From contig NZ_CP075583.1 in NCBI RefSeq assembly GCF_023509035.1, positions 1,178,001 through 1,242,000 on the forward strand: DNA of 64,000 bases, read 5' to 3'. The stretch comes from Janthinobacterium lividum (GTDB lineage Bacteria; Pseudomonadota; Gammaproteobacteria; Burkholderiales; Burkholderiaceae_D). A program made the position numbers and the translations under genes. Below are positions 5,964 to 11,030 of this stretch, one piece after another. Every line of letters begins with the position of its first letter. The stretch's first letter is position 1. Below the pieces are notes generated by a model. It saw only the letters and a list, made by a program, of their open reading frames with translations. It had not been told where the DNA came from and searched no databases.

Positions 5964-6161
5964 GCGGGCTCCGTATAGTGGGGGGATCAAGGGCCGCCAG
6001 GCAGGGTCAGGGCGCGCGGCAGCGTGCATCATCATAATGGAAGGGCTGGCGCAACGAAAGTCATCGCTGTGCGTGGCAAATGCTGCAAAGCGGCACCTGA
6101 ATCAATGAAATGGCGGCGATTGGATGCGATAATACCGCTTCTCCAAGCTCGATTGCCTGCC

Positions 6162-7247
6162 ATGCCACAATTTGCTCCGCTCCAGAATGATACTTTCCTG
6201 CGCGCCCTGCTGCGCCAGCCGACCGAGCACACCCCTGTCTGGCTGATGCGCCAGGCGGGCCGCTATTTGCCCGAATACCGCGCCACGCGCGAGCGGGCCG
6301 GCTCTTTCCTGGGCCTGGCAAAGAATCCCGATTACGCCACGGAAGTGACCTTGCAGCCGCTGGAGCGTTTCCCGCTCGACGCGGCCATCCTGTTTTCCGA
6401 CATCCTGACGGTGCCTGACGCGATGGGCCTGGGCCTGTATTTCGCCGATGGCGAAGGCCCGAAGTTCGAGCGTCCGCTGCGCACGGAACAGGACGTGCAG
6501 GCTTTGCGCGTGCCGGATCTGGAGTCGCTCGACTACGTCTTCAAGGCCGTCACGCAAATCCGCACGGAATTGAACGGCCGCGTGCCGCTGATCGGTTTTT
6601 CCGGCAGCCCGTGGACCCTGGCGTGCTACATGGTGGAAGGCGGCGGCTCGAAAGAGTTCCACACCATCAAGAAGATGCTGTACAACCGCCCGGACCTGAT
6701 GCACCACATCCTGGCCATCAACGCCACCTCCGTGGCGCAGTACCTGAATGCGCAAATCGATGCCGGCGCGCAAGCCGTGATGATTTTCGATTCCTGGGGC
6801 GGTGCGCTGGCCGATGGCGCCTACCAGGAATTCTCGCTGGCCTACATGCAACAAGTGGTGGCGCAGCTGAAGCGCGACAAGGATGGCGTGAAAATCCCCG
6901 CCATCGTATTTACCAAGGGCGGCGGCCAGTGGATCGAACAGATCGCCGACATCGGCGCCGATGCCGTGGGCCTGGACTGGACCGTCAACCTGACGCGCGC
7001 GCGCCAGCTGGTGGGACATAAGGTGGGATTGCAGGGCAATCTCGACCCCGCCATCCTGTTCGCCAGCCCCGAGCAGATCCGCGCCGAAGTGGCGAAAGTG
7101 CTCAACGCCTTTGGCGCGCCGTCGGCAGGCACGGGCCATGTATTCAACCTGGGCCATGGCATTTCCCAGTTTACGCCGCCGGAATCCGTGGAAGCGATGG
7201 TGGAAGCCGTGCACAGCATGAGCCGCGCCATGCGCAGCGGCCAGTAA
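6162..7247 (+). CDS. hemE: uroporphyrinogen decarboxylase
   Basis: 361 residues starting [18 protein letters not shown]. HemE removes the four acetate carboxyls of uroporphyrinogen III to give coproporphyrinogen III in cytoplasmic heme synthesis. The family signatures are present: [16 protein letters not shown] near the N-terminus, [12 protein letters not shown] in the substrate pocket, [13 protein letters not shown] and the C-terminal FNLGHGI. Length matches the family (about 355-365). An extended -10 box TGCGATAAT at 6125-6133 lies upstream, giving a short leader. A strong terminator follows, and then 840 bp of non-coding DNA before priA. Confidence 0.97.
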
Positions 7248-7277
7248 TTCCCCGTTTCCCCCGGCGCAGGGGCAGAG

Positions 7278-7314
7278 AAGGCAGGCTTTCCAGTGGAAGC
7301 CTGCCTTTTTCTTT
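7278..7314 (+). terminator. rho-independent terminator of hemE
   Basis: Perfect 11-bp stem AAGGCAGGCTT/AAGCCTGCCTT (7278-7288 and 7297-7307) with an 8-base loop, followed by a T-rich run. Confidence 0.85.
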
Positions 7315-7329
7315 GCTGCGCACTAGCAA

Positions 7330-8087
7330 GAAAATACCGACTTATGCACAATTTTTTTTGCTGCGGAAATAAGAGGCAGTCGAAGAGCCATGCCCGGGGA
7401 AGCTCTGCAAGTGCTTGATTATTAAGAAATAAAAAATGCCTTGCTCAGCGGACTTTGTTGCAATTGATAAGGTTATTCTTCCGTTTGCCAGCCTTATTCG
7501 TTCATTGTCCACAAAGTTATCAACAGATTCTGTGGATAAAATTGAAAAGTAATTTGTTAACCGATACTTAGCGCAGATGTTCAGGTTTCACCTGAAGTGT
7601 ATGCTGCAGTGCATGATAATTACACAATGTTTCGCCGTCCGGCAGGCAAAAACGAACGCTTGCCCGGCAATTGTCAAATTTGCCGCATGCGGCAGGTGTT
7701 TTTCCGGATCGGACACCTTAAAACGGTGCTGATTTCTGTATAAATAAATTACAAATGGTTCAGTTATGCACAGCGGCGGAAATGCCCCATGGATTTATAG
7801 CCTCCCGGGCATCAATTTTTAAGTCATTGATTTTAAATAGTTAATTTTTCTTGCGTGCCCCTCTTGACGGCGATCGAAATCTTCTATCCACATTTTTCTG
7901 AAAGTTAATTTTGCTTTGTCCACAAAGTTATCCACAGAATTTTCTTCAGGCACGATGACGCGCTGTTGCGTCCGCCGTTAGGCGTTTGAGGGGCGGAACA
8001 AGTATTATGGCCGGCTCGCTTGATGCCTGACATCCCGCCGCGCCATTGACCCCGCGGCGCGCTTTTTTAATGAGATAGGCCACCCCC
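7330..8087. other. AT-rich non-coding region with DnaA-box cluster (candidate oriC or DnaA-titration site)
   Basis: No credible gene is present in the 840 bp between hemE and priA. Perfect matches to TTATNCACA lie at 7342-7350 (+), 7531-7539 (-), 7764-7772 (+) and 7928-7936 (+). One-mismatch boxes lie at 7505-7513, 7517-7525, 7884-7892 and 7916-7924. Two paired-box modules, 7507-7527 and 7918-7938, are identical at 20 of 21 positions. AT-rich stretches (about 7350-7440 and 7815-7860) could serve for unwinding. A 14-bp perfect palindrome TGCCGCATGCGGCA lies at 7681-7694, and an inverted repeat TTCAGGT/ACCTGAA at 7580-7596. The density and pairing resemble a replication origin, but dnaA is not in this window, so a DnaA-binding regulatory or titration locus is the alternative. 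Confidence 0.6.
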
Positions 8088-10139
8088 ATGTCGCAGTGCT
8101 TTTCGACGTCGTGCATCCTGAAAATCGCGCTCGACACGCCCCTGAACGCCCTGTTCGACTACCGCTGGAACGCATTGGCGGATGCGGACGCTGCCGTGCC
8201 GCTGCCGCAAGTGGGGCAGTTGGCGCTGGTGCCGTTCGGCCGGCGCGAAGTGATGGGGCTGATCGTCGGCGTGTCCGACAGCACCGACGTGCCCGCCGCG
8301 AAATTGAAGGACGTGCTGGCCGTGCGCAGCCAGCTGGCGCCGCTGTCGGAACAGTGGCTGGCGCTGGCCGCCTTTGCCGCCGATTACTACCAGCGTCCGC
8401 TGGGTGAAGTGGCCCTGCCGGGCTTGCCGAAGAATTTGCGGGTGCTCACCACCGTGGCGCTGGACCGGGCCATCAAGAAGCTGGCCAAGCTGGCCGACGC
8501 GCATGACGGCACGCCACTGAACATGCCGGCGCTCAATCCTGCTCAGCAGGAAGCGGCCGATGCCATCGGCGGCGCGCAGGGTTTCAAGCCCACCCTGCTG
8601 TATGGGGTGACGGGCAGTGGCAAGACGGAAGTGTATCTGCAAGCCTGCGCCCAGGTGCTGGCGCGCGACGAGGCGGCGCAAATCCTCATCCTGGTGCCGG
8701 AAATCAATTTGACGCCCCAGTTGGAAGGCAATATCCGCGCGCGCTTTCCCGGCGTCATGCTGGCTACCTTGCACAGCAGCCTGTCCGAGGGCGAGCGCAT
8801 GCTGCACTGGCTGGCCGCCCACCAGGGCCAGGCGCGCATCGTCCTCGGCACGCGATTAGCCATCCTGGCGTCCTTGCCTAAATTGAAACTGATCGTCATC
8901 GACGAAGAGCACGACCCTTCCTACAAGCAGCAAGAAGGCTTGCGCTATTCGGCGCGCGACCTGGCCGTGTGGCGCGCCTGGCAATTGCAGATACCCATCG
9001 TGCTCGGTTCGGCCACGCCCTCGCTGGAAAGCTGGCACCACGCCCAGACGGGACGCTACCGCAAGCTGGAATTGCGCGAACGGGCCGTCAAGAATGCGGT
9101 GTTGCCTCGCGTCAAGATTTTGGACATGGAGCGTGACAAGCCGAAAGATGGCCTGACTTCGCATCTGGTAGCCGCCTTGAAACTGCGCATGGAGCGCGGT
9201 GAGCAGTCGCTGCTGTTCTTGAACCGGCGCGGCTATTCGCCCGTGATCTGCTGCGAATCGTGCGGCTGGATCAGCAATTGCACGCGCTGCACCTCGTTCA
9301 TGGTGCTGCACAAGCCCGAACACCGCCTGCGCTGCCACCATTGCAGCCTGGAATTGCGTATTCCCCGCCATTGCCCCACCTGCGGCAACGTCGACTTGCA
9401 GCCGCTGGGACGCGGTACGCAGCGGGTGGAAGAGGGCTTGCAGCAACTGTTTCCGGAGGCGCGGATCTTGCGCATCGATGCCGATTCCACGCGCAAGAAA
9501 GGCAGCGCGCAGGAAGCGTTCGACACCGTGCACCGGGGCGAAGTGGATATTTTGATCGGCACGCAGATGGTGGCCAAGGGCCACGATTTTAAAAAGCTGA
9601 CCCTGGTAGGCATTTTGAATCCGGACACGGCCCTGTTTTCCCAGGATTACCGGGCCAGCGAACGGCTGTTTGCCCAGTTGATGCAGGTGGCGGGCCGGGC
9701 CGGGCGGGCCGCGCAGACGGAAGGCGGCAGCATTTCCGAAGTGCTGATCCAGACGCGCTATGCGCGCCATCCGCTGTACGACGCCGTCGTCAACCACGAT
9801 TACGACCACTTCGCCACGACCTTGCTGGAAGAGCGGGCCCAGGCGGCGCTGCCGCCGTATCTGTTCCAGGCCCTGCTGCGGGCCGAAGCGCCCGAGCTGG
9901 CCACGGCCATCGAGTTCCTGCAGGCGGCCAAGGAATGCATGGAACATCCGCAGGTGACCATCAATGACCCGATTCCCATGAGCATGACGCGCGTGTACAA
10001 CGTGGACCGCGCCCAGCTGCTGCTCGAATCCGCCTCGCGGCCCGCGCTGCAGGCGTTTTTAAAAGAATGGCTGACTGAATTGCGCGCCATGAAGTCGCGC
10101 GTGAAATGGTCGCTGGAAGTGGACCCGCTGGATATCTGA
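8088..10139 (+). CDS. priA: primosomal protein N' (replication restart helicase PriA)
   Basis: 683 residues. PriA recognises stalled forks and D-loops and reloads DnaB through the primosome. The N-terminal 3' DNA-binding domain begins ILKIALDTPLNALFDY, the form typical of the family. Walker A GVTGSGKT is at residues 173-180 and the DEEH box near 270. The zinc-binding module follows as paired cysteines (CCESCGW, CTRC, CHHC, CPTC), then a helicase C-terminal lobe with the GRAGR motif. The start ATG has little Shine-Dalgarno sequence. The gene lies directly downstream of the DnaA-box region. Its stop codon abuts the stop of the convergent argP-type gene with no gap. Confidence 0.97.
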   Translation: MSQCFSTSCILKIALDTPLNALFDYRWNALADADAAVPLPQVGQLALVPFGRREVMGLIVGVSDSTDVPAAKLKDVLAVRSQLAPLSEQWLALAAFAADYYQRPLGEVALPGLPKNLRVLTTVALDRAIKKLAKLADAHDGTPLNMPALNPAQQEAADAIGGAQGFKPTLLYGVTGSGKTEVYLQACAQVLARDEAAQILILVPEINLTPQLEGNIRARFPGVMLATLHSSLSEGERMLHWLAAHQGQARIVLGTRLAILASLPKLKLIVIDEEHDPSYKQQEGLRYSARDLAVWRAWQLQIPIVLGSATPSLESWHHAQTGRYRKLELRERAVKNAVLPRVKILDMERDKPKDGLTSHLVAALKLRMERGEQSLLFLNRRGYSPVICCESCGWISNCTRCTSFMVLHKPEHRLRCHHCSLELRIPRHCPTCGNVDLQPLGRGTQRVEEGLQQLFPEARILRIDADSTRKKGSAQEAFDTVHRGEVDILIGTQMVAKGHDFKKLTLVGILNPDTALFSQDYRASERLFAQLMQVAGRAGRAAQTEGGSISEVLIQTRYARHPLYDAVVNHDYDHFATTLLEERAQAALPPYLFQALLRAEAPELATAIEFLQAAKECMEHPQVTINDPIPMSMTRVYNVDRAQLLLESASRPALQAFLKEWLTELRAMKSRVKWSLEVDPLDI

Positions 10140-11030
10140 TTAGTTCAGGTAGTCGCGCGCCGACTTGACGATCTGCTCGGACAGCAGTTTGGTAAACGGC
10201 GTGTCCAGGGTCCACGCATGCCAGCTCAGCGGCACGTCCAGGGTGCTGCCCGGCATCAGATCCACGAGACGGTCTGTTGCCAGCGCTGGCGCGGCCAGAC
10301 GCTGTGGCATCAAGCCGTAGGCCAGGCCATCCTGGATGCAGGCGCGGCGCGCCGCTTCGACCGGTAAAGTGTGGTGTGGAAACGGTTCACGCATGCTTAA
10401 TTGTTCAGCGAGGAAACGCGCCAGCAAGCCGTGCTGGCCCACGACGGCGGGCGCCAGTTGCACCGCCTCGGCAATAAAACCATCGCCGAACCAGTGGCCC
10501 GCAAACACGGGCGTGGCCACGCAGACATAGCGCAAGGTGCCCAGCGGCGTGACGCTGGTGGCGGCCGCCGCGTCGATCGCTGTGCCGGACTCGGCCGACA
10601 CGCAGCCAAACACGGAACCGTCGCGCACCATTTGCAGGGCGCTGACGCTGTCGGCCAGGCGCACGTCGAGCTGGCAGCGCGGCGGCGCCAGCAGGGCGGA
10701 CAAGGTGTCGGGGAACCAGGTAGCCAGGCTGTCGGCATCGATGGCGATGGCGATTTCCGGCATGCTGACGCTGTTGCCCAGGTCGATGTCGAGCGACGCT
10801 TCCATCAGCTTGACGTTGCGGTGATGCACGATCAGGCGCTGGCCCAGGCCCGTCGGCACGGCTGGCTGGCCACGGATGATCAGCAGGCGCCCGCTGGCGT
10901 CTTCCAGCGCCTTGATGCGCTGCGAGACGGCCGACTGGGTGATGCCCAGCGCCAGGGCGGCCTTGTCGAAACTGCCATGGCTGGCGACGGCGTCCAGCAC
11001 GGCAAGCGCGCGATAATCGAGTGATCCCAT
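10140..11030 (-). CDS. argP: LysR-family regulator, ArgP (IciA) type
   Basis: 296 residues. The N-terminal winged helix-turn-helix (about residues 3-62) reads DYRALAVLDAVASHGSFDKA with ITQSAVSQRIKALE, characteristic of the ArgP/IciA subfamily, followed by a periplasmic-binding-like effector domain. ArgP senses lysine/arginine in the cytoplasm and activates exporters such as ArgO/LysE. In E. coli the same protein was first described as IciA, which binds oriC 13-mers. No lysE/argO neighbour is present; the divergent gene is a disulfide oxidoreductase 116 bp away, so the shared AT-rich intergenic region may hold its operator. It converges on priA with abutting stop codons. Confidence 0.85.
   Translation of the reverse strand: MGSLDYRALAVLDAVASHGSFDKAALALGITQSAVSQRIKALEDASGRLLIIRGQPAVPTGLGQRLIVHHRNVKLMEASLDIDLGNSVSMPEIAIAIDADSLATWFPDTLSALLAPPRCQLDVRLADSVSALQMVRDGSVFGCVSAESGTAIDAAAATSVTPLGTLRYVCVATPVFAGHWFGDGFIAEAVQLAPAVVGQHGLLARFLAEQLSMREPFPHHTLPVEAARRACIQDGLAYGLMPQRLAAPALATDRLVDLMPGSTLDVPLSWHAWTLDTPFTKLLSEQIVKSARDYLN

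Follow-up and report, generated by a model that had tools for sequence, protein, structure and literature searches.

The window analysed here, that is, the whole 64-kb stretch of DNA, comprises bases 1178001-1242000 of the single 6,262,330-bp contig of Janthinobacterium lividum. In this window, the genes hemE and priA follow each other on the same strand and are separated by 840 bp (7248-8087) with 46% GC, in agreement with the AT-rich spacer of an earlier, preliminary description of this DNA. The nearest relatives of hemE come from Janthinobacterium, with 99% identity, and just 3' of this gene (7279-7312) a hairpin followed by a run of T residues could be recognized by eye as an apparent intrinsic terminator. 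Only four perfect DnaA boxes, TTATNCACA, occur in the 64-kb window, namely, those at 7342, 7531 (reverse strand), 7764 and 7928 in the hemE-priA gap, exactly as noted before. Their clustering is real and beyond chance, which had also been claimed: 5000 dinucleotide-preserving shuffles of the gap gave no box in 4878 cases, one box in 121, two boxes in 1, and never more, and none of 100 shuffles of the whole window attained four perfect boxes. Boxes with one mismatch are indeed present too, although there are five of them in the gap (7505, 7517, 7735, 7884 and 7916) rather than four. Those at 7735 and 7884 are poorly conserved, with means of 0.72 and 0.71 among 19 Janthinobacterium sequences, and were therefore dropped as probable chance matches.

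Two perfect matches to the IHF consensus, at 7408 and 7820, account for the layout of the remaining boxes, which falls into two predicted modules (Table 1). The consensus used is the degenerate one of E. coli; an IhfA homologue, above the curated cut-off, is encoded in the genome. The two paired-box modules previously described do exist, but they start 2 bp earlier than reported, at 7505-7525 and 7916-7936. With all distances given from start to start, where d1 goes from the distal box to the IHF site and d2 from the IHF site to box III, module 1 reads TTATGCACA -66- IHF -97- TTGTCCACA -12- TTATCAACA -14- inverted TTATCCACA, and module 2 reads TTATGCACA -56- IHF -96- TTGTCCACA -12- TTATCCACA. 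An inverted box is absent from module 2 in this genome, its expected position having seven mismatches. For comparison, the DDAH site datA in a stretch of the E. coli K-12 genome, which is found by the same module pattern (L204, position 4745), reads TTATCCACA -65- IHF -97- TTATTCACA, and the cores of the DnaA-reactivating sequences DARS1 and DARS2 of K-12 consist of box III, box II 12 bp later, and an inverted box I a further 14 bp away. The spacings of module 1 match both, and so this module appears to combine the loop geometry of datA with a DARS core, and module 2 the geometry of datA without the inverted box.

Table 1. Genes, DnaA boxes and predicted IHF sites in and around the hemE-priA gap (window positions).
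Feature	Positions	Strand	Remarks
hemE	6024-7247	+	Upstream neighbour of the gap; TIGR01464 above cut-off
Module 1 distal DnaA box, TTATGCACA	7342-7350	+	Perfect; counterpart of datA box 2
Module 1 IHF site, CAAGTGCTTGATT	7408-7420	+	Perfect match to consensus YAANNNNTTGATW
Module 1 box III, TTGTCCACA	7505-7513	+	One mismatch; 97 bp from start of IHF site
Module 1 box II, TTATCAACA	7517-7525	+	One mismatch; 12 bp from box III
Module 1 box I, TTATCCACA	7531-7539	-	Perfect, inverted; 14 bp from box II; completes DARS-type core
Module 2 distal DnaA box, TTATGCACA	7764-7772	+	Perfect; 56 bp 5' of IHF site
Module 2 IHF site, TAAGTCATTGATT	7820-7832	+	Perfect consensus match
Module 2 box III, TTGTCCACA	7916-7924	+	One mismatch; 96 bp from start of IHF site
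Module 2 box II, TTATCCACA	7928-7936	+	Perfect
priA	8088-10139	+	Pfam and NCBIfam; element upstream of priA in many families
ArgP/LysG-family gene	10140-11030	-	NF002964 above its cut-off, TIGR03298 just below

The predicted module sites are conserved far better than the DNA around them. Among the 19 Janthinobacterium sequences, the nine sites have a mean identity of 97%, versus 73% elsewhere in the gap, where the weak boxes at 7735 and 7884 are counted with the rest. The distal box of module 1, which lies 66 bp 5' of the IHF site, is invariant; the fixed positions of this IHF site are all conserved at 0.95 or more, and two of its four N positions at about 0.5, versus a single fixed position that goes down to 0.79 in the IHF site of module 2. 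We also collected 80 hemE loci from named genomes, of which the 76 with a priA match were compared. Both modules are found in 75 of these loci, and one module in the remaining locus, with d2 between 95 and 98 throughout, and d1 either 55-58 or 66-68, two groups that differ by about one helical turn. The number of perfect boxes per gap ranges from 1 to 5, and a threshold scan found no three-box core in 19 of these gaps, 18 from Massilia.

The preliminary description had put forward the gap as a candidate replication origin. An AT-rich gap with DnaA boxes and IHF sites would suit an origin, or a second origin, and the hemE-linked origin of Caulobacter provides a precedent. To locate the origin we used the GC3 skew averaged over plus- and minus-strand genes, which cancels most of the effect of gene direction, in 43 segments (40 stretches, and the window in three). 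Between 939 kb and 4.07 Mb, the skew is positive in every one of the 26 segments, one of which has genes on a single strand only; in the other 17, which run from 4.23 Mb round the chromosome to 920 kb, it is zero or negative. Therefore, the sign changes near 939 kb and, about half a chromosome away, near 4.07-4.23 Mb. The uncorrected skew is weaker and of mixed sign within each half, being, for instance, -0.012 at 1198 kb. In finer tracts, the corrected skew switches from -0.059 (900-938 kb) to +0.043 (939.5-979 kb), whereas it is positive to either side of the hemE-priA gap, +0.021 on the left and +0.054 on the right.

At the skew switch, between the genes for a choline-dehydrogenase-like GMC oxidoreductase (an assignment below the curated cut-offs) and an MTA/SAH nucleosidase, lies another gap (938.2-939.5 kb). 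Within it, at 938200-939500, are three repeats of about 465 bp that together carry six perfect DnaA boxes. In each of them, one box precedes a run such as TACTATTACTACTATT, which we take to be an unwinding element of the DnaA-trio type. A regular expression for this run matched three times here and not once, on either strand, in the hemE-priA gap. The box-plus-trio pattern was found in 33 of 48 named Oxalobacteraceae genomes, this set being 48 of the 80 hemE loci, and a stricter version of the pattern matched 12 of 116 genomes of the family. Thus, 938200-939500 is likely to be the true oriC, about 362 kb from dnaA and 246 kb from the hemE-priA gap. The dnaA gene, at 1300.4-1301.8 kb, was also considered and rejected as the site of the origin: the stretches sampled around 1301 kb show no change of sign, the tract left of dnaA having no plus-strand gene for the correction, and there is no trio upstream of the gene. 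As a separate observation, dnaA (1300437-1301809), although an essential gene, is split over two overlapping frames, probably because of an error in sequencing or assembly. In excerpts from the report of one published Janthinobacterium genome, the likely origin was placed by G+C skew together with the position of dnaA-dnaN-gyrB (PMC3566124); our analysis separates the likely origin of Janthinobacterium from dnaA. Elsewhere, the skew was too weak to locate the origin in Massilia sp. 9I, and the raw skew was too noisy in one order-level genome (20 stretches of 15 kb).

With neither a sign change nor a DnaA-trio at 1185 kb, the hemE-priA cluster is probably not the start of chromosome copying, and we regard the reading of this gap as an origin, or a second one, as extremely improbable. 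It had been anticipated that a skew minimum at dnaA, together with loss of the boxes in close relatives, would speak against an origin; the skew minimum is not at dnaA, and the boxes are not lost. The nearby ArgP-type gene, which had been mentioned in the same context, is present, and it supports an origin neither way. Could the gap instead be the relic of an ancestral origin, its boxes kept by inertia? Neither dnaA nor the likely origin is more than about 250 kb from the gap, but the sites in the gap are conserved far beyond their surroundings, with spacings that are kept across families, and this makes a relic very improbable.

The modules are not confined to the hemE-priA gap. In the genome of J. 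lividum, the module pattern has four matches, namely, two in the gap and two at 3193.5-3194.8 kb, with none in the reversed control. The latter two (3193537-3194786) appear as complete modules of the datA/DARS type that flank a response-regulator gene. When only DARS-type triples are sought (up to three mismatches), ten are found: one in the hemE-priA gap, two at 3193 kb and seven upstream of xseA, again with none in the reversed control. The last seven form a tandem array of three-box cores (5798621-5799577), and a perfect IHF consensus occurs 25-26 bp after three of these cores. The module pattern does not match anywhere in this array, which we therefore did not include among the module copies.

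In other genomes, the module pattern was detected in 217 of 392 genomes of the family, in 19 of 300 genomes of the order, five of which belong to the window's own family, and, in its strict form, in 3 of 369 genomes of the class, that of J. lividum included; the reversed control gave zero throughout. The low class-wide count is partly explained by some other gammaproteobacteria in which d1 is near 78 or 89 (L325, L344 and L348), and by the absence of any perfect forward box near priA in 15 of 27 representatives from outside the Burkholderiales. Fourteen matches of the order scan lie outside the family, ten of them directly upstream of priA, and six of these ten have hemE on the other side. The other four, all from the f25 Burkholderiales, are at the end of a tatD-type gene. 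These four (L248-L251, 1501-1673), three of them genomes of about 1.3 Mb, are among eight f25 genomes in the scan, and in the one of the four whose priA was examined (L307) there is no perfect box upstream of this gene.

We then looked upstream of priA in one genome per family. First, a strict scan of 30 Burkholderiales families, allowing up to four mismatches, found the module in 13 families, in each of which none of 200 shuffles scored as well. It found none in the other 17, three of which (L302, L304 and L316) do carry the module, with a d1 of 78-79. Second, among 30 other families of the class, one genome, already a match in the class scan, has the strict geometry, and a perfect box on either strand occurs near priA in 15; in part of these priA upstreams the arrangement recurs with its distal arm lengthened. 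Third, the layout was described in 56 of these 60 representatives, leaving out four in which the PriA N-terminus was not found, three of them among the 15 with a perfect box. A perfect forward box is present upstream of priA in 33 of the 56 (21/29 Burkholderiales, 12/27 others), and no such box was found within 450 bp of priA in 8/29 Burkholderiales and 15/27 others.

Using as anchor the perfect forward box nearest to priA, box III (up to two mismatches) was found 12 bp before it in 30 of the 33 representatives, and in 18 of those 30 an inverted box follows the anchor at 14 bp. In the same 33 upstreams, 23 of 40 forward IHF-like sites (up to one mismatch) lie 96-99 bp before box III, whereas the 19 sites on the opposite strand coincide at most three times at any one offset. 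The anchor was chosen after the data had been inspected, and related genomes are not independent, so that these counts are descriptive and not probabilities. Two perfect forward boxes 130-230 bp apart occur in 26 priA upstreams, with a distance from the distal box to box III of 161-170 in 12, 174-180 in another 12, and 141 and 150 in two, classes that look like helical phasing. The link with priA is not universal, and the 750-bp stretch upstream of priA in E. coli K-12 counts against universality, as it has no perfect box, one box with a single mismatch, and no such layout.

These observations bear on the two alternatives to an origin raised in the preliminary description, a DnaA-binding control site, there in the form of a titration site, and DnaA control of priA, both of which survive. 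The latter, in which the module would be a cis-acting DnaA-IHF switch of priA transcription that couples provision of the restart helicase to the activity of DnaA, is the chief rival to a reading of the modules as datA/DARS-type elements. It would explain why ten of the 14 matches outside the family are directly upstream of priA, why no module in the opposite orientation was found in 38 and 30 priA upstreams, and why box II can come within about 12-26 bp of the start codon, as placed by alignment. Nevertheless, copies exist away from priA, at 3193 kb in the same genome and at tatD in f25; the distance from the proximal box to the start codon varies from about 12 to 199 bp; module 1 of the window ends 549 bp short of priA; and in geometry the module corresponds to datA and DARS, sites that work on DnaA in trans. 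We thus consider a priA switch as the main function unlikely. A passive titration site near the origin, leaving the nucleotide state of DnaA unchanged, is more improbable still. Titration is supported in E. coli, according to excerpts from a study whose main text, as far as covered, does not mention priA (PMC12371093), and the four perfect boxes, at 246 kb from the likely origin, could serve it, yet titration needs neither a fixed 97-bp spacing from IHF nor an inverted third box, both kept across families.

Judging from the arrangement of the sites, the hemE-priA gap is rather likely to contain, instead of an origin, a tandem pair of DnaA-IHF control elements of the datA/DARS type. In these elements, a bend introduced by IHF into the DNA of about 160 bp would bring the DnaA bound at the distal box into contact with that at the proximal boxes. 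The complex thus formed would alter the nucleotide state of DnaA and, in this way, the time at which initiation occurs at the likely origin, 246 kb from the gap. In analogy to E. coli, module 1, with its head-to-head core, might favour ADP release, that is, DARS-like reactivation, and module 2, with all boxes in one direction, ATP hydrolysis or storage, that is, datA-like inactivation; the sign is in both cases a guess. Module copies away from priA imply that the element is more than a piece of the priA promoter, and the f25 module, together with the occurrence of this geometry at datA rather than at priA in K-12, argues for action in trans. Conversely, the tie to priA in many families, which the datA/DARS-type reading alone leaves unexplained, argues for some effect on priA, and both may be true. 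More tentatively, and with more doubt than confidence, we propose an ancestral DnaA-regulating element upstream of priA, common to Beta- and Gammaproteobacteria, that united the IHF loop of datA and the core of DARS in one module of about 200 bp. Under this proposal, datA and DARS of E. coli would be displaced, specialised descendants or parallel versions, and the Oxalobacteraceae would have doubled and spread the element.

Detailed knowledge of datA and DARS comes from E. coli. The DARS2 core was described as conserved specifically among E. coli-related gammaproteobacteria (PMC4245941, in excerpt), and a later review, also in excerpt, extends the conservation of its spacings to E. coli-proximal beta- or gammaproteobacteria (PMC5742627). 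In a literature search of partial coverage on DnaA boxes, priA, hemE, DDAH and datA, we found no description of a priA-linked DnaA-IHF element; a paper on topoisomerase III came up, as did one on Laribacter, the excerpts of which deal with other subjects. If our reading is correct, IHF-dependent control of DnaA would be old and widespread, with one module of both geometries linked to the restart helicase in many families; the module would provide a sequence signature for finding such control elements, and a testable link between restart, by PriA, and initiation, by DnaA.

Finally, the modules can be compared with known systems. Chromosomal origins with a DnaA-trio are of the BUS type, and the hemE-priA gap shares with them the presence of DnaA boxes in AT-rich intergenic DNA, but it lacks the trio and the skew switch, both of which are found at 938-939 kb. 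In Bacillus subtilis and Streptomyces coelicolor, datA-like chromosomal box clusters repress untimely initiation, according to excerpts of the review cited above (PMC5742627). The same source gives DARS1 and DARS2 a common core spacing with box I inverted. Such a core is present in module 1 at 7505-7539 (starts 12 and 14 bp apart, the last box inverted, one mismatch to the scan pattern), but not in module 2, which has no third box. As in DARS2, whose own site has one mismatch, an IHF-like site of the same polarity lies upstream, although the interval from IHF to the core is 97 bp instead of the 87 bp of DARS2, and, unlike in DARS, a distal box in the same orientation is present.

As for datA, its essential parts are boxes 2, 3 and 7 and one IHF site, with optimised orientations and intervals of boxes 2 and 3 and the IHF site (PMC5742627, in excerpt). 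It differs in its location, at tRNA-Gly/queG rather than as two tandem copies at priA, and in that the modules have a tandem partner after box 3, to which module 1 adds the inverted box 14 bp later. This partner has the same direction and lies 12 bp after box 3. No box-7-like site is seen 12 bp upstream of the distal boxes, where there are 5 and 7 mismatches; K-12 datA has a site with 2 mismatches at that position, presumably its low-affinity box 7. Yet datA and the priA-linked modules are both intergenic, and both have a high-affinity box, an IHF site and a second box in one orientation. Two boxes of the same direction thus flank a single IHF site at the E. coli intervals, 65/97 in datA, 66/97 in module 1 and 56/96 in module 2, with one mismatch in the box 3 found here and a d1 in module 2 that is 9 bp below that of datA, close to one helical turn.
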